64,000 nucleotides of DNA from Thermococcus sp. JdFR-02. Its GTDB lineage: Archaea; Methanobacteriota_B; Thermococci; Thermococcales; Thermococcaceae. Under the pieces are notes generated by a model. That model was not told the origin of the DNA, ran no database searches, and worked only from the letters and a program-made list of their open reading frames with translations. Position 1 is the first letter of the stretch. Every line of letters starts with the position of its first letter. Location of the stretch: positions 62,001-126,000 of the forward strand of contig MTLP01000007.1 of the NCBI GenBank assembly GCA_002009975.1, given 5' to 3'. Below, one piece after another: positions 2,023 to 9,306 of this stretch. A program made the translations under genes and the position numbers.

Positions 2023-2030
2023 TTTATAAA
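2023..2030 (+). promoter_or_regulatory. TATA box for the radical-SAM gene
   Basis: TTTATAAA lies 35 nt before the ATG at 2065 in an A-rich context. This suggests that the radical-SAM gene has its own promoter with a very short leader, and no strong Shine-Dalgarno site is visible. The two transporter genes before it therefore form a separate transcription unit. Confidence 0.55.
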
Positions 2031-2064
2031 TATGAAGATATATTCCTATATATAGTGAAAATTC

Positions 2065-3522
2065 ATGAAAGCAAATGATAAAAAGCTCGAGATTTATATA
2101 TTTACAGTTGAAGATAAGTATTTTCTCCTTTCTCCTCCAACTGGTATAGTTTTTGAAATTGATAGAAAAACTTACGAGTTTTGTAATACTGTTAGTGTAT
2201 TCGGGTGGAGTAAGAGTAAGGAAGAATTTGTGAGGAAATATTCTGAGAGTGATTGGGATGCTTTAATTAGTGAGATTAAGACTGATGAAACTTTGAACAA
2301 AATCTTTTTTGGAGAAAAACCTAAGCCCAACCTTCCTCTTGGAAGTATTAAACCAAAACTCTCAAGCTTATCTTTGAATGTTATGGAGGATTGCAATTTC
2401 GCTTGTGTTTACTGCTATGGTAACGCAGGCACTTATAACACTCCAAACACTAAGATGGATTTTGAAACTGGGAAGAAAGCCATTGATCTTCTTATAAAGG
2501 AAGGAAAGCAAGTTGTTAATATCAGCTTTTTTGGTGGAGAGCCTTTGCTTAACTTTGCACTTATTCAAAAGCTCGTTGCTTACGCTAAAGAAAAGGCTAA
2601 GGAGCATAATAAAACCATCAACTTCAGCATAACAACAAATGGTTATCTTATTAACGATGAAGTTATTGACTTCTTCCTTGAGAACAACTTCACGGTAACA
2701 TTGAGTTTTGATGGCCCAAAGGAAATTCAGGATTATAACAGATCTCTGAGGAGTGGTGCTGGAACTTTTGATGTTGTTTCAAAGAATGCCAAGAAAATGC
2801 TTGAAAAAGGAGTCAAGGTTAGTGTTAGGACCACAATCTTACCAAGCCAGCTTGAAAAGTACTATGACATCTACCGCTTTTTTGTAGATTTCGGGTTTAG
2901 AAGTGTCCACTTGGAAATGGCAACAATAAACGAAAAGCCCACGGAAGAACACATTGCGATAATCAAGGAGGCTCTGGAAAAAATTGCAAAGGATGAGTTA
3001 GGACACTACAAGGAAAAGGGGATAGTTTACACTAAGTTAAGGGATATAGTGAGGAGCATCTACTCCACGGCAGTCAAACAGTATCCTTGTGGTGCAGCGA
3101 GGACTTACTTTGGAGTCTCTGCTGATGGAACTATCTACCCCTGTCACAGATTTGTTGGAATGAGCAATTTTATTGTTGGAGGTGTTGATGACTTCAAGTG
3201 GGAGAACGAGTTTATTCAAAAGATCCTCCACTTCACTGTGGACAAGAGACCCTACTGTAGGGATTGTCCAATAAGGATGTACTGTGGAGGAGGATGTATT
3301 TACAACAACTTCTACTATAATGGCGACATTTTCAAGCCTGATGCGTTTCATTGTGCGTATATGGAAGAGTTGTTTAAGTGGGGTGTTTGGCTCTACTCAA
3401 ACCTTGATGAGGATTGGTTGAATAAGGCTTTTTCACGCTCACCCCGTGAAGGGGTGAGGGATGAGACACAAGCCGATGAATCCGAACAAAAAAGAAAGGG
3501 AGGTGATGGAAGTGGCGTTTAG
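2065..3522 (+). CDS. Radical SAM/SPASM peptide maturase
   Basis: A 485-residue enzyme. The radical SAM cluster motif is C110-x3-C114-x2-C117 and the SAM-binding motif is GGEP at 157-160. A complete seven-cysteine SPASM domain follows: C342, C360, C398-x2-C401-x5-C407-x3-C411 and C430. Residues 1-95 form a separate N-terminal domain of the size of a peptide-recognition element in RiPP maturases (inference). SPASM enzymes of this layout crosslink cysteines in precursor peptides, and two Cys-rich peptide genes follow directly, the first overlapping this gene by 11 nt. The tail after about residue 456 is low-complexity and is coded by an inverted repeat, so it may not be part of the fold. Relatives include clostridial Cys-rich peptide maturases and thioether-forming enzymes; the exact subfamily is not settled. 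Confidence 0.92.
   Translation: MKANDKKLEIYIFTVEDKYFLLSPPTGIVFEIDRKTYEFCNTVSVFGWSKSKEEFVRKYSESDWDALISEIKTDETLNKIFFGEKPKPNLPLGSIKPKLSSLSLNVMEDCNFACVYCYGNAGTYNTPNTKMDFETGKKAIDLLIKEGKQVVNISFFGGEPLLNFALIQKLVAYAKEKAKEHNKTINFSITTNGYLINDEVIDFFLENNFTVTLSFDGPKEIQDYNRSLRSGAGTFDVVSKNAKKMLEKGVKVSVRTTILPSQLEKYYDIYRFFVDFGFRSVHLEMATINEKPTEEHIAIIKEALEKIAKDELGHYKEKGIVYTKLRDIVRSIYSTAVKQYPCGAARTYFGVSADGTIYPCHRFVGMSNFIVGGVDDFKWENEFIQKILHFTVDKRPYCRDCPIRMYCGGGCIYNNFYYNGDIFKPDAFHCAYMEELFKWGVWLYSNLDEDWLNKAFSRSPREGVRDETQADESEQKRKGGDGSGV
3438..3458 (+). repeat. Perfect 8-bp hairpin at the end of the maturase gene
   Basis: CTCACCCC and GGGGTGAG flank a 5-nt loop (GTGAA). This G+C-rich hairpin sits inside the last 28 codons of the radical-SAM gene, 53 nt ahead of the first precursor start. 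It has no T-run, so it is not a canonical archaeal terminator. It may stabilise or process the mRNA so that precursor is made in excess over enzyme. A diverged copy of the left arm and loop recurs at 6642-6659. Confidence 0.75.
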
Positions 3523-3664
3523 AAAACTGAACAAAGAAAGAGAGACAATATCACCACTATGTGCGTGGGTTGATATCTGCATAGACTACGACTATTGTGT
3601 TTGGGACGATTGTGGAAAGTTTGATGTATGTATATATGACAACTGCCTTGCGGATACTGATTAA
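3512..3664 (+). CDS. Putative Cys/Asp-rich RiPP precursor peptide 1
   Basis: A 50-residue peptide. The GTG start is preferred because GGGAGGTGA lies 5 nt upstream and the resulting N-terminus (VAFRKLN) matches that of the next peptide (MFKKLN); an ATG at 3506 is the alternative. The first 16 residues are a basic, Cys-free leader. The core carries Cys at 17, 23, 29, 34, 40 and 45 at 5-6 residue spacing. Four cysteines are followed by Asp at +4 (C17/D21, C23/D27, C29/D33, C34/D38) and two by Asp at +3 (C40/D43, C45/D48). This layout resembles substrates of Cys-to-Asp thioether-forming SPASM enzymes. The product and activity are unknown. Confidence 0.8.
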   Translation: MAFRKLNKERETISPLCAWVDICIDYDYCVWDDCGKFDVCIYDNCLADTD

Positions 3665-3688
3665 AACTTCATACAGGAGGTGTTACAA

Positions 3689-3862
3689 ATGTTTAAAAAG
3701 CTTAATAATAAAAGCCAAAAGACCCAACCATCTCCTGAATGGTGCATTGACATCTGTATAGGTGGCGATGTATGTGGAGCATGTGATACAGCATGTGATC
3801 AGAATGACAGTTGTATTACAGATGGATGTATATTTGACTGTTATTTAGACATTACACCCTGA
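3689..3862 (+). CDS. Putative Cys/Asp-rich RiPP precursor peptide 2
   Basis: A 57-residue peptide preceded by CAGGAGGTG with 6-nt spacing, which fixes the ATG at 3689. The leader (MFKKLNNKSQ...) resembles that of peptide 1. The core has eight cysteines at 19, 23, 29, 32, 36, 42, 47 and 51. Most have an Asp three or four residues later: C23/D27, C29/D33, C36/D40, C42/D45, C47/D50 and C51/D54. It shares the P-x-W/C-IDIC core entry with peptide 1 but is clearly diverged, so the cluster would encode at least two different products. No leader-cleavage site or protease gene is recognisable nearby. Confidence 0.8.
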   Translation: MFKKLNNKSQKTQPSPEWCIDICIGGDVCGACDTACDQNDSCITDGCIFDCYLDITP

Positions 3863-3890: not shown

Positions 3891-3917
3891 TAACCTAAAC
3901 AAAATATGGTGAGGAGA

Positions 3918-4793
3918 ATGCTCAGAGTATTCATCAAAAAAGCACTGTATGATAGAACTGTAATTCTTGGTGTTTGTCTTTTTCTCATATTCTACTTTAA
4001 TATCCTTTTGGGAGTGAAGAACTCTACTTATTTTGAAAGCTGGCAATACTCAAAACTTGTTCTTAACTATTTTAGCGACATGCCTTCAATAGTTATTTTA
4101 ATCTTTGCAAGCATTTGGGGTTCAAGAAGCATAAACACCGAGTCTTTGCCATTGATTTTAAGTAAACCCCTTTCTCGATATAATTACTTACTTACAAAAG
4201 CCATGTCCTCTTTTTTATTCTTTTTAGCTTTGTCTCTCTTGTTATATCCAATTTTATTACTTTCTTCTCTTGCTTTTGGGACCTCTATCAGCTTAAACCT
4301 GAGCTTTGTACTAATATTTGCTCTATTTCTCTCTGCTTTCTATTCTATTGGTATGCTCATCTCAACTATAACTTCTCCTAAAAAAGCTCCTGTAGTAGCA
4401 CTCATTATAGTTATCTTATTTGTATACCTAGAATCTACATTTCACCATACAATTGAAAAAGAAGTGCTGAGGATGTACAATATTACCCAATATGATATGG
4501 CAAGATATTTTGCTACTAACGAAAAAATCTTTTGGAAAATTTCAAGTGACATATTTGCTCTTAAAGTCAAGAAAAGCTGGGAACAGTTTTTTAATCCTTT
4601 CACCCACTTTAGAATTTTGTTAACATATATAATGAGCAATGGAAACTTATGGAATTACTACCATTCTCCTGAAATATATTCTATATTCCAAATGCCTATA
4701 AAAGCGTGGAGAGCCTTGGGTTTTCTAATTCTCGATACATTATTACCATTAGTTATAACATTAAAAATCTTTAATCAAAAAGATTTAAGGTGA
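3918..4793 (+). CDS. ABC-2 type permease, first subunit of second exporter
   Basis: A protein of about 291 residues with six predicted membrane helices. The cytoplasmic segment ILSKPLSRYNYLLTK matches the S-K-P-x-S-R-x-x-Y motif of NosY-type ABC-2 permeases. GGTGAG lies 5 nt before the ATG at 3918, so the in-frame ATG at 3906, which has no such site, is less likely. It forms an operon with a second permease and an ATPase, giving a likely heterodimeric exporter next to the peptide genes. A role in exporting the modified peptide or in immunity is inferred from position. Confidence 0.85.
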   Translation: MLRVFIKKALYDRTVILGVCLFLIFYFNILLGVKNSTYFESWQYSKLVLNYFSDMPSIVILIFASIWGSRSINTESLPLILSKPLSRYNYLLTKAMSSFLFFLALSLLLYPILLLSSLAFGTSISLNLSFVLIFALFLSAFYSIGMLISTITSPKKAPVVALIIVILFVYLESTFHHTIEKEVLRMYNITQYDMARYFATNEKIFWKISSDIFALKVKKSWEQFFNPFTHFRILLTYIMSNGNLWNYYHSPEIYSIFQMPIKAWRALGFLILDTLLPLVITLKIFNQKDLR

Positions 4794-4797
4794 TAAC

Positions 4798-5715
4798 ATG
4801 TGGTCGTTCAAGCTTGAAGCAAAGAACAGCTTGAGAACTAAAAAGTTTTGGTTAACAATAGTGCTGATCTCTCTAGTGTACGTTATAGCCTTTAGGGAGA
4901 TAAAGGACAACCTTAAAGCTACTACTAACCTCCAGGGGGTGTTGACTTTCAGTCTAATAGGCTATATACTTGCGAGTGCTTTTTTGTTCATAGGGTTATA
5001 TGTCCTTATTTTAGGAGCTACATCAATCAACGGTGACCTTGAAAATGGAACGGTTCAGATATCCTTAAGCAAGCCTGTTAATAGAATACAGTATCTAATC
5101 GGAAAGTTTCTTGGACAGTTCGTTTCAATCATTGTTGCACTTCTTTTCGCTACACTCCTTTCTCTTGTCATAACAAGATACTACAGCATATCCATAACAG
5201 TCAAAATAATTTCTGATCTTACAATAGCCAATGCTCTCACGCTCCTCTCAATGCTTCAGCTACTCGCACTCGGCTTACTTATCTCAACCTTCATTCGCTC
5301 TCAGAACACTGCTATCAGCGTTGTTCTCATCCTCTTCCTTGTTACCGGATTGGTGGCACCTCAAATAGTCGACAGCATGGCAAAAGACAGAGCTAGAGAA
5401 GAGTTCCACATCAAAACACCTGAAGATGCCATGAAGATGCCTGTTGAGGAACGCAACAAGTATCACCAACGTCAAATAGAACTCCAGAAGGAGTACCACT
5501 TAAGATACCTGTTCTACATTCCTCAAGTGCTCCTTGAGGATATAGTGATAGATATGCAGAGAACCACTTTTATCAAGGGGAAGATCAGAACAGAGTATAT
5601 CAGGGCTTGGGACGCCATCAAGAACAATCCTTTGAGGGTCTCTCTTCTTGTGGGACTAACCTTGGTCTATCTAATCATGGCAGTTTTTCGCTTTGTTAGA
5701 ATGGACCTGAGGTGA
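4798..5715 (+). CDS. ABC-2 type permease, second subunit of second exporter
   Basis: A 305-residue membrane protein. The motif INGDLENGTVQISLSKPVNR near residues 75-95 is characteristic of NosY-like ABC-2 permeases. A charged extracytoplasmic or linker region of about 90 residues (near 190-265) separates the last helix from the rest. AAGGTGAT precedes the ATG, and the gene starts 4 nt after the first permease stop. The gap to the downstream ATPase start is 5 nt, so translation of the three is probably coupled. Confidence 0.87.
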   Translation: MWSFKLEAKNSLRTKKFWLTIVLISLVYVIAFREIKDNLKATTNLQGVLTFSLIGYILASAFLFIGLYVLILGATSINGDLENGTVQISLSKPVNRIQYLIGKFLGQFVSIIVALLFATLLSLVITRYYSISITVKIISDLTIANALTLLSMLQLLALGLLISTFIRSQNTAISVVLILFLVTGLVAPQIVDSMAKDRAREEFHIKTPEDAMKMPVEERNKYHQRQIELQKEYHLRYLFYIPQVLLEDIVIDMQRTTFIKGKIRTEYIRAWDAIKNNPLRVSLLVGLTLVYLIMAVFRFVRMDLR

Positions 5716-5720
5716 CAATT

Positions 5721-6635
5721 GTGTTGAGAATTGAGAATCTAATCAAGATTTACAAGGATATTAGGGCTTTGGATGGCTTGAATTTGGAGGTTAAAGAGGG
5801 GCAGATTTACGGATTTTTAGGACCTAACGGTGCCGGGAAGACAACAACAATCCTGAGCATTCTTGGAATGATATTCCCGCAGAAGGGCAGGATAGAAGTG
5901 CTAGGTGAGGAAGTCTTCAACGGAAAGTTCGATGAAGAGAAGCTCATCAAAGTCAAGTACATGATTGGTTACATGCCTGAGGACGCTACACTCTGGGATT
6001 TTTTAACGCCAATGCAGACGCTTGACATTATTGGTGAAGCTTTTAAAATGTCCAAAGCAGAGAGGCAAAAACGCTCAGAGGAGCTTTTAAAGCTCGTCGG
6101 CTTATGGGACGTCAAAGATAAAAAAGTTGGCAAGCTCTCAAAAGGAATGCGCCAGCGTTTATTGTTGGCACAGGCGCTCATTAATGATCCAGAACTTTTA
6201 ATCTTGGACGAGCCCATGAGCGGATTAGATCCAAAAGGTATTGCTGAATTCAAAGAGTTGATTAGGCAGTTCAACAAGGAAGGAAAAACAGTCTTCTTTT
6301 CATCGCACATCTTAGCTCATGTCGAAGAAATCTGCGACACTGTTGGCGTTATTGTTAAAGGAAAGCTGAGAGCCCAAGACTCTTTGGACAATATTAAAAA
6401 AGAGTTCTTAAGACGGGCTGGCCACACGATACTGATTGAGACAAACAAACCCATCCATATAGATCTTGAGGGAGTCAAAGTTGAGGTTATTGGTACTAAT
6501 AAATACAGGATTATCACAAGCAAAGATGTTAGGGAAGAACTCCACGACTTGATAGCAGTTCAAAACGCAAAAATTCTAACAATGCAGATTAAAGAGCCGA
6601 GCTTGGAAGAAATATTCCTAAAAATGATCGAATAA
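5721..6635 (+). CDS. ABC transporter ATP-binding protein of second exporter
   Basis: A 304-residue ATPase. GPNGAGKT (Walker A) is near residue 35, followed by LSKGMRQR (signature), LLILDEP (Walker B), GLDPKG (D-loop) and SSH (H-loop). The last 90 residues form the extra domain common in NatA-type ATPases. GTG at 5721 is preferred because GAGGTGA is 5 nt upstream; GTG at 5712 would overlap the previous stop. Together with the two permeases it makes a full ABC-2 exporter. Confidence 0.9.
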   Translation: MLRIENLIKIYKDIRALDGLNLEVKEGQIYGFLGPNGAGKTTTILSILGMIFPQKGRIEVLGEEVFNGKFDEEKLIKVKYMIGYMPEDATLWDFLTPMQTLDIIGEAFKMSKAERQKRSEELLKLVGLWDVKDKKVGKLSKGMRQRLLLAQALINDPELLILDEPMSGLDPKGIAEFKELIRQFNKEGKTVFFSSHILAHVEEICDTVGVIVKGKLRAQDSLDNIKKEFLRRAGHTILIETNKPIHIDLEGVKVEVIGTNKYRIITSKDVREELHDLIAVQNAKILTMQIKEPSLEEIFLKMIE

Positions 6636-6929: not shown

Positions 6930-7976
6930 TTGAACCAGAGAGTATTTTTAACAAGTGTTAAAAGAATATCAGAGATTGCAATAATCTCTATTTTAATTCT
7001 GCTTATCCTGACATCACTGACTGTTGAAGCCAAGAAGAAAACCCTTATTAACAATAACATGAACCTGCCTCTTTTCTTATGGTACGCTTCAAACAAAACT
7101 GCACAAGAGGAAGCCAAAGTACTTGGAATGAATCAAACAGAGTACTTAGAGTACGTAATCCTTAGAAAATTCGGTTTGAACAAACCGCTCTATGTCTTGA
7201 TTCCCCAACAAATTAAAAGCGCGATAACTTATATTGGGCAGAATAGGGAGTATATACTCATCTCCACTTTTAGAACTGTTCTTCTTCTCCTACTCGTTCA
7301 AGGTTTTATCTTGGTATTTGGTCTGCTCATTGGAGTTCTAGCTGGTTATAAAAGAGACGGCTTTTTGGATAAGCTAGTTTCAACATTGGCGCCTGTGTCA
7401 AACGGAGTTCCCAGCTGGTGGATTGCGGGCATGTTACTCCTTATTCTTTCTCTCAAATTTAATCTATTTCCCGCTTCGGGATATATGTCAATACCTCCAA
7501 AGACGGGTCTTTATTATTATTATCTTGATATTGCTAAGCACTTAGTTCTCCCATTTTTAGCCCTCTTTCTAGCTCGTTTCTGGGAATATGCTTTTATTGT
7601 TAGGAGCTTAATTTTTGAGGAGTTCAAAAGGGATTATATACTCGTTGCTGAAGCTAAAGGTGTTCCAAAAAAGAAAATTTTATGGGGACATGCCCTAAGA
7701 AATATCCTTCCCTCATTCCTTACCTTCACAACATACAACTTTCTCGACCTGCTCACAAGTGTCTTTGTGATTGATATAGTTTTCGATTTAAGAGGACTTG
7801 GGACTTTGTTAAGGATAAGCTTTTTCAGAACACTTGTAAGTGCTAGGGGAATTTTCACAACATTGAGACCAGAGCTTTTCCTTTCTATTTGTATTATTAT
7901 CATGATCCTGTACTTGGTTGTATCCGCAATCTTAGAGACCCTCTACATTTACCTCGATCCAAGAATTGGGGGATAA
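6930..7976 (+). CDS. Oligopeptide/dipeptide-type ABC permease (DppB/OppB family)
   Basis: A 348-residue protein starting at TTG, with GGAGGG 6 nt upstream. One N-terminal helix and an extracytoplasmic region of about 85 residues precede five helices of a binding-protein-dependent permease domain. The EAA-type loop reads EAKGVPKKKILWGHALRNIL. The family normally imports peptides or sugars together with a DppC subunit, a binding protein and ATPases. The DppC partner follows after 4 nt, but no binding protein or ATPase gene is adjacent, so the pair is incomplete locally. Confidence 0.85.
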   Translation: MNQRVFLTSVKRISEIAIISILILLILTSLTVEAKKKTLINNNMNLPLFLWYASNKTAQEEAKVLGMNQTEYLEYVILRKFGLNKPLYVLIPQQIKSAITYIGQNREYILISTFRTVLLLLLVQGFILVFGLLIGVLAGYKRDGFLDKLVSTLAPVSNGVPSWWIAGMLLLILSLKFNLFPASGYMSIPPKTGLYYYYLDIAKHLVLPFLALFLARFWEYAFIVRSLIFEEFKRDYILVAEAKGVPKKKILWGHALRNILPSFLTFTTYNFLDLLTSVFVIDIVFDLRGLGTLLRISFFRTLVSARGIFTTLRPELFLSICIIIMILYLVVSAILETLYIYLDPRIGG

Positions 7977-7980
7977 GTAA

Positions 7981-9306
7981 ATGATTGAAGAAAAATCCAT
8001 TAAATATGGTTTCCTGATCATAACCTCTTTCATCCTTTTATCTCTCCTAACTCCCTTTATAGTTCCTGAGGAAAGGGTTAAGTACTGGAACGATGGTAAT
8101 TACTGGATTAAGAATCCTAAACTTGCGCCACCCAAGTGGTACAACTATTTTACAAGCAAAGACAGAACACCAACTGAGATTCTCACTCCAAAACAAAAGA
8201 AAATTGAGAATTTTAATTCTTTAAGGATGTACAATTTCTCCTTTGAATATGACTACACTTATTATGTTCCTCCTCAAGATATTTGGATAAATCTTAATGT
8301 TAATTCGAGCAATGCACTTTATGAGGTTTCCTTTATCCGTCCAGATAGGATCAATATTCTGCTCCTTCAAGGGGAAGTCCAAAAGGGAGAAATCTCCCTA
8401 AAAACACGTCAAGAAGTCAGAAAAACTGTCATGAACTTTGCAATGGAGAAGCTTGATGTAAAGACATTCAACCAGCTCACCTTCAATCCCTTTGAATACC
8501 TTTTTTCATCCAAAAGCGGAAATCCTCTGAAGGGTGTTTATAGAATTGATGTTGTTATTTACTCTTTTAATCAGAGTGATGTTATTGAAGAGCCGAGCAT
8601 TAGAATTGTGGGAAGTTGCTATGGGATTTTAGGGACTGATAATATGGGAAGAGACTTATTTGTGGGTTTTATATGGGCTATGAGGAATACACTATTTTTA
8701 GCTTTATTTGTCGCTCTCTTCACAGTGTTTTTTGGAACACTCTTTGGTTTAATAACTGGTTACATAGATTCAAGATTAAGTAAAGCTCTTGAATTTGTAA
8801 ACAAAGTTTTCCTTGCTCTTCCTGTTCTTCCAACTGCTTTAATCATAACATATCTCATCTCGGTTCAGAGTGTGGGTAAGAGCGTGGAGCTTTCAACATT
8901 TGAGTTTTCAATTATACTGAGTGCATTACTTTGGGGAAAACCTGCACGGAGTATAAAGGCAATTGTTGAACAAGAAAAGGTTCAAGAATACGTTACTGTT
9001 GCTGAAAGCATTGGTGCAAGCAAATTCTATATTCTAAGAAGACATATATTGAAAAAAGTCCTCCCTTACTCTTTTGCAGTTCTCTCAATAACAGTTCCAA
9101 AGGTCATTGTTCTTATTTCGCTTTTTGGATTTTTTGGTATCGTTCCTGGGATTAATTGGGGCTCTTTCATGGCTGAAGCATTGGAAAGGGGTGGATTTTA
9201 TGGTGGTGTTTGGTGGTGGATAATTCCACCAGGATTAGCAATAGCCTTGATTGGGATTGGCTTCGTCTTGATAAATAAGGGAATAGAAAAATGGTTAGGA
9301 ATATAG
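7981..9306 (+). CDS. Oligopeptide/dipeptide-type ABC permease (DppC/OppC family)
   Basis: A 441-residue protein, longer than a usual DppC (about 300). One N-terminal helix is followed by a hydrophilic insert of about 180 residues (near 35-210), then the permease domain with the EAA-type loop VAESIGASKFYILRRHILKK. The large insert lies where the periplasmic domain would be and may bring its own substrate contact. It starts 4 nt after the DppB-like gene. The operon ends here, head-on against hisS, and the missing ATPases must be supplied from elsewhere. Confidence 0.85.
   Translation: MIEEKSIKYGFLIITSFILLSLLTPFIVPEERVKYWNDGNYWIKNPKLAPPKWYNYFTSKDRTPTEILTPKQKKIENFNSLRMYNFSFEYDYTYYVPPQDIWINLNVNSSNALYEVSFIRPDRINILLLQGEVQKGEISLKTRQEVRKTVMNFAMEKLDVKTFNQLTFNPFEYLFSSKSGNPLKGVYRIDVVIYSFNQSDVIEEPSIRIVGSCYGILGTDNMGRDLFVGFIWAMRNTLFLALFVALFTVFFGTLFGLITGYIDSRLSKALEFVNKVFLALPVLPTALIITYLISVQSVGKSVELSTFEFSIILSALLWGKPARSIKAIVEQEKVQEYVTVAESIGASKFYILRRHILKKVLPYSFAVLSITVPKVIVLISLFGFFGIVPGINWGSFMAEALERGGFYGGVWWWIIPPGLAIALIGIGFVLINKGIEKWLGI

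Follow-up and report, generated by a model that had tools for sequence, protein, structure and literature searches.

The stretch of DNA analyzed here (64,000 nucleotides; hereafter the window) carries, on its forward strand, a run of genes in the order permease, ATPase, radical SAM enzyme, peptide 1, peptide 2, permease, permease and ATPase. The radical SAM/SPASM gene (2065–3522) is complete and overlaps by 11 nt the first of two tiny genes with strong ribosome-binding sites (3512–3664 and 3689–3862), and an ABC-2 exporter lies on either side (upstream 186–1985, downstream 3906–6635), as the first-pass annotation had described. The upstream exporter consists of an ABC-2 type permease (186–983; PF01061 at 25.7 bits, just under the 26.9 cut-off) and an ABC ATPase syntenic with it (993–1985; PF00005). 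The downstream exporter comprises two ABC-2 permeases (3906–4793, PF12679 at 56 bits, with a 58% identical counterpart in genome G086; and 4798–5715, PF12679 at 156 bits) and an ABC ATPase (5712–6635; PF00005 and DrrA1-3_C). A TATA-like promoter element, TTTATAAATA (2023–2032, forward strand), precedes the radical SAM gene, and a similar A/T element is present upstream of that gene at the other eight orthologous loci described below.

The enzyme is a 485-residue protein with the motif CX3CX2C (C110, C114 and C117; PF04055) and a full set of seven SPASM cysteines (C342, C360, C398, C401, C407, C411 and C430). Its best match among the NCBIfam models was rSAM_PapB (NF047865; 279.9–281.1 bits, E = 2.8 × 10−83), followed by the nif11-like model TIGR04064 (276.7 bits), the QhpD model TIGR03906 (254.8 bits) and the SCIFF maturase model TIGR03974 (254.8 bits), each below its own cut-off (340, 518.7, 453 and 425 bits, respectively). 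These best-scoring families all consist of SPASM enzymes acting on peptides or small proteins. The earlier description of the gene as a RiPP maturase is supported, with PapB as the closest family; as the score lies under the cut-off, we do not file the enzyme as a PapB equivalog but as a new family beside PapB.

The maturase CteB has an N-terminal leader-binding domain. Residues 17–443 of the window enzyme align with CteB (PDB 5wgg), its nearest solved structure by sequence, which has the same domain layout. The predicted structure of the enzyme is poor (mean pLDDT 44, built from two sequences only), and the first 80 residues of the model form three strands followed by three helices, with block pLDDT values mostly of 50–75; as modeled, the N-terminal region is compatible with an RRE. 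R362, the arginine of the PCHRF motif, is kept across all Thermococcaceae copies aligned and in QhpD and NlpM, whereas CteB has glutamine at this position. PapB requires Arg372 for activity with Asp/Glu acceptors (PMC9413430), and we infer that R362 is the counterpart of this residue.

Both peptides combine a Cys-free leader with a Cys-filled core, in agreement with what had been noted earlier. Precursor 1 (50 aa) comprises the leader MAFRKLNKERETISPL (3512–3559) and the core CAWVDICIDYDYCVWDDCGKFDVCIYDNCLADTD, which contains six Cys and is 59% identical to its G086 counterpart; the peptide matches family model A1 (E = 2.3 × 10−12), being itself a member of that alignment. Its GTG start (3512) lies 11 nt inside the radical SAM gene, and its ribosome-binding site GGAGGTGAT (3499–3507), kept in most orthologues, is encoded within radical SAM codons. 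Precursor 2 (57 aa), also of family A1 and with a 74% identical homologue in G086 (E = 4.4 × 10−17), starts at ATG 3689 behind the ribosome-binding site GGAGGTG (3676–3682) and comprises the leader MFKKLNNKSQKTQPSPEW (3689–3742) and the core CIDICIGGDVCGACDTACDQNDSCITDGCIFDCYLDITP with eight Cys. A mechanical ORF listing gives longer forms of the peptides, from 3461 and 3680; we take 3512 and 3689 as the true starts, as indicated by the ribosome-binding sites and the relatives. At least five Cys occur in 8 of the 356 window ORFs of 30–90 aa, and at least four C-X2/3-D motifs in precursors 1 and 2 only. Chance ORFs were ruled out, given the presence of such peptides at all nine orthologous loci and the lack of any other window ORF of 30–90 aa that fits.

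Orthologues of the enzyme (67–87% identity) were found in nine of 94 Thermococcaceae genomes, the window's own counted. The closest, at 87% identity, belongs to the MAG Thermococcus sp. AUK126, the nearest named relative, which supports the earlier placement of the DNA in a hyperthermophilic archaeon. The first-pass annotation had held that its reading would fail if the peptides were not conserved beside the enzyme; across Thermococcaceae, one to three small Cys/Asp peptides follow the enzyme at every one of the nine loci, as a rule between the conserved ABC-2 exporters. Their common leader is of the MFKKLN...P type, with Asn after KL in most family members and Thr or Gly in others. The peptide family model matched ten genomes, namely the nine with the enzyme and G040, all of which hold the locus or its remains. 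Syntenic orthologues of the upstream permease adjoin the enzyme in six other loci; an insertion separates the two in G043, and the contig ends in G086. The second downstream permease has orthologues in G040 and in six of the other eight orthologous loci, and the downstream ATPase has 71–83% identical orthologues in the same place. The enzyme was present in 8 of 13 genomes with the upstream permease and in 1 of 102 without it (Fisher p ~ 2 × 10−8, a guide only, the genomes being related and their kinship uncorrected).

Elsewhere, decay or deletion has affected the gene set. In G040 (L085:4306–6932), an intact precursor and the flanking exporters remain, but OppB/OppC-like genes occupy the place of the radical SAM gene, of which a remnant of 21 residues is left. 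On contig 46 of G055 (L090:427–703) the cluster is present a second time in degenerate form, with a C-terminal radical SAM remnant and a frameshifted precursor. In G070, the first permease is joined by a deletion to the terminal part of the last ATPase. In G018 and G064 the first permease and ATPase persist, and another gene island takes the place of the enzyme. The system is therefore patchy and prone to loss. That some genomes keep the upstream permease but lack the enzyme would be consistent with retained protection, and also with an independent function. Downstream of the cluster in the window lies a pair of OppB/OppC-like permease genes (6930–7976 and 7981–9306, forward strand; PF00528 in both) that is not directly flanked by a binding protein or ATPase; similar pairs come after the cluster in four other genomes, OppC-like relatives (~34% identical) occur on the same side of the cluster in G016, G017, G023 and G043, and the pair is a possible extension of the cluster.

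Two additional neighbors were seen at other loci. A gene for a small putative lipoprotein (131 aa; no Pfam match), not seen in the window, adjoins the end of the second precursor in L026 (6641–7033) and also in L028 and L030; its product is a candidate self-protection protein. Parts of a different island stand beside the first permease–ATPase pair in L086, L087, L089 and L027 (G052, G018, G064 and G043, respectively), with a FAD/GGR-like oxidoreductase, a different radical SAM/SPASM enzyme, a PqqD-domain protein (L089:7064–7399), FtsX-type ABC genes and what may be an actin-like ATPase; the island resembles an alternative cluster for peptide or cofactor modification at a common hot spot.

The cores, which hold 5–8 Cys each, are built around one motif. 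C-X2/3-[DE], counted with two or three residues between Cys and Asp/Glu, none of them Cys, Asp or Glu, was found at 80 of the 108 Cys in 17 cores, compared to 15.9 ± 3.6 (maximum 29) in shuffled cores. Relative to Cys, Asp is overrepresented at +3, +4 and −2, with other positions at or below expectation; the cores are related and the z-scores overstate their independence, yet the motif is common to cores without other shared sequence. The spacing is mixed (C-X2-D 42, C-X3-D 33), and strict n = 3 applies to 35 Cys.

The cores also differ from the rest of the locus in how they vary. In the seven loci of genus g4, the enzymes are 86–93% identical and the leader DNA is 77–94% identical, G043 excepted. 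The core DNA of the first peptide is 91–95% identical among G016, G017 and G055 and 49–60% identical in all other genus-g4 pairs, about chance for such alignments, so that similarity ends where leader meets core, the enzyme staying conserved. We read this sequence pattern as an apparent replacement of core cassettes; very fast divergence of the cores under selection may also account for it.

Together, these observations suggest that the locus is probably a ranthipeptide-type RiPP operon, with a PapB-like enzyme, Cys–Asp links and membership of a new archaeal family. The first-pass annotation had named both sactipeptides and ranthipeptides; its assignment to thioether RiPPs is supported and, judging from sequence, would narrow to a PapB/QhpD-like Cys–Asp ranthipeptide type. 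By analogy with PapB and QhpD, the RRE-like N-terminal domain would bind the MFKKLN...P leader of each precursor, and the enzyme would generate a 5′-deoxyadenosyl radical, take hydrogen from the Asp beta carbon (the gamma carbon in the case of Glu) and bond this carbon to the Cys sulfur three or four residues upstream. Links would form most likely once per Cys, giving up to six in precursor 1 and eight in precursor 2. The computed monoisotopic masses, with Met at position 1, are 5885.60 for unmodified precursor 1 and 5873.51 for six links, and 6234.69 for unmodified precursor 2 and 6218.57 for eight. Cleavage near the conserved Pro that ends the leader would fall to a protease, the gene for which probably lies elsewhere, and the flanking ABC-2 systems may export the product, protect the producer, or both.

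The likeness to PapA/PapB, the freyrasin system, lies in a radical SAM/SPASM maturase adjoining a Cys/Asp precursor with C-Xn-D motifs, and leader-directed formation of Cys–Asp thioethers would be expected here too. The window system differs in its mixture of C-X2-D and C-X3-D, compared to six C-X3-D in freyrasin, in the sub-cut-off enzyme, in the one to three precursors per locus, in the first precursor start inside the enzyme gene, and in its flanking ABC-2 exporters, archaeal host and core swapping. PapB acts on CXnD with n = 0–6 and needs the leader (PMC9413430), contrary to an earlier study, reviewed in PMC8172795, in which it was poor on C-X2-D. Given the latter report, the mixed spacing counts against a PapB-like reading, as does the score of 280 bits against a cut-off of 340. 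The low confidence of the structure model and the lack of an obvious protease or immunity protein in the cluster also weigh against the ranthipeptide interpretation.

Regiochemistry is not fixed by the SPASM sequence alone, and the same operon logic could serve sactionine formation (Cys to alpha carbon) or other radical SAM chemistry, such as Cys–Thr links of the SCIFF type, whose maturase model scores 255 bits. We regard this as unlikely in view of the strong enrichment of Asp/Glu at +3/+4 from Cys, the far lower scores of sactipeptide maturase models (RumMC, 101 against a cut-off of 720) and the absence from CteB of the arginine at the R362 position. Membership of the SCIFF system itself was rejected on the enzyme score and on the cores, which vary and hold 5–8 Cys, in contrast to the conserved six-Cys SCIFF precursor family. 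QhpD (PeaB) is a related enzyme that shares the Arg of C[HQ]RF and an adjacent substrate gene; QhpD joins Cys to Asp/Glu methylene carbons, and its model also reaches 255 bits. A QhpD-like role, in which the window enzyme would cross-link some enzyme's small structural subunit and the product would not be secreted, nevertheless seems very improbable: the QhpD substrate is a subunit of quinohemoprotein amine dehydrogenase, whereas the window has no amine dehydrogenase genes, no other catalytic subunit is encoded nearby, and up to three peptides per locus, swapped cores and exporters on both sides all argue otherwise. QhpD-system membership was rejected on the score and on the neighbors, which are ABC transporters. 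The enzyme also resembles NlpM (TIGR04064) in its SPASM region at 277 bits, but Nif11-like peptide membership was rejected on the score and because the precursors match no Nif11 leader family in NCBIfam or Pfam.

A different proposal, in which the peptides bind metal through thiols and carboxylates in the manner of a metallothionein or metallophore and the enzyme modifies them partly or has another target, would draw on the Cys/Asp-rich cores and the precursor pI of ~4. It is hard to reconcile with hypervariable cores of fixed C-X2-3-D spacing that are strictly paired with the enzyme, the cores have no conserved CXXC-type metal site and no metal gene was seen within the cluster, and we give it little credence.

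Returning to the ranthipeptide reading, core swapping together with decay and deletion of the gene set points to conflict or signaling rather than housekeeping. Because of the patchiness and core exchange, we place antagonism between related archaea first, with about an even chance if that reading holds, and signaling second. A more far-reaching model, which we offer tentatively and consider rather doubtful, is that Thermococcaceae exchange core cassettes: maturase, leader and exporter would stay fixed while entire cores are exchanged at their border with the leader, yielding strain-specific Cys–Asp cross-linked toxins with matching self-protection, and parallel systems of the same superfamily would operate on chromosomes and plasmids.

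The claim that such RiPPs are little described in hyperthermophilic archaea holds for the literature searched, in which no Thermococcus ranthipeptide was found. Surveys have nevertheless predicted ranthipeptide clusters in archaea (PMC12144867), and we therefore do not claim their general presence there as new. Characterized archaeal RiPP products are few; before the 2025 study (PMC12144867) they comprised two haloarchaeal lanthipeptides. While the ranthipeptide-like class is known, the archaeal family, the mixed spacing, the overlapping gene layout and the core-cassette exchange appear new. The locus and its relatives provide a defined enzyme–substrate set from hyperthermophiles, with an enzyme that is likely heat-stable and natural core diversity that allows direct tests of Cys–Asp chemistry, of how leaders are recognized and of which cores are tolerated. 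Should the products act on other cells, the system would make peptide antagonism in Thermococcaceae accessible to study.

Two further groups of related enzymes, 35–40% identical, fall into clades of their own in the tree, each with its own peptides. In the second system (L033–L036; G017, G023, G016 and G018), the enzyme (37–41% identical) is directly followed by a conserved peptide of 48–50 aa, MEFEVVNPGDKTKIWIGPCGVLDQGGCPFPEDWECWWPEDICYRPEPI, which has no NCBIfam match and carries four C-X3-[DE] motifs, a spacing closer to freyrasin than that of the window's peptides. The third (L037–L042) has one or more MRALVK...C..I.D..CE peptides of ~30–40 aa with two Cys after the enzyme. Such a peptide is also encoded on the Thermococcus nautili plasmid NZ_OX281346.1 (L095:8522) behind a strong ribosome-binding site, and is absent among the genes listed there (an incomplete table). 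Searches of plasmids with the window enzyme returned distant relatives only, the best at 38.5% on a T. nautili plasmid, and viral contigs searched yielded none. G113, a genome from another family of the class, has a 37% identical enzyme that precedes a peptide of this Cys/Asp kind ending in RLNGTSEPQPPTCPDDYICPWVDICTIDFDPCAFIDICGIDYH, which speaks for the ranthipeptide reading; this peptide was not among the matches of the peptide family model and was found by reading downstream of its enzyme. Finally, an Anaerococcus prevotii plasmid (L099:2686–2838) encodes a small Cys-rich peptide upstream of a related radical SAM gene; its leader, MFEKINLGNN, resembles MFKKLNAGGN, and the peptide may link archaeal and bacterial leaders.
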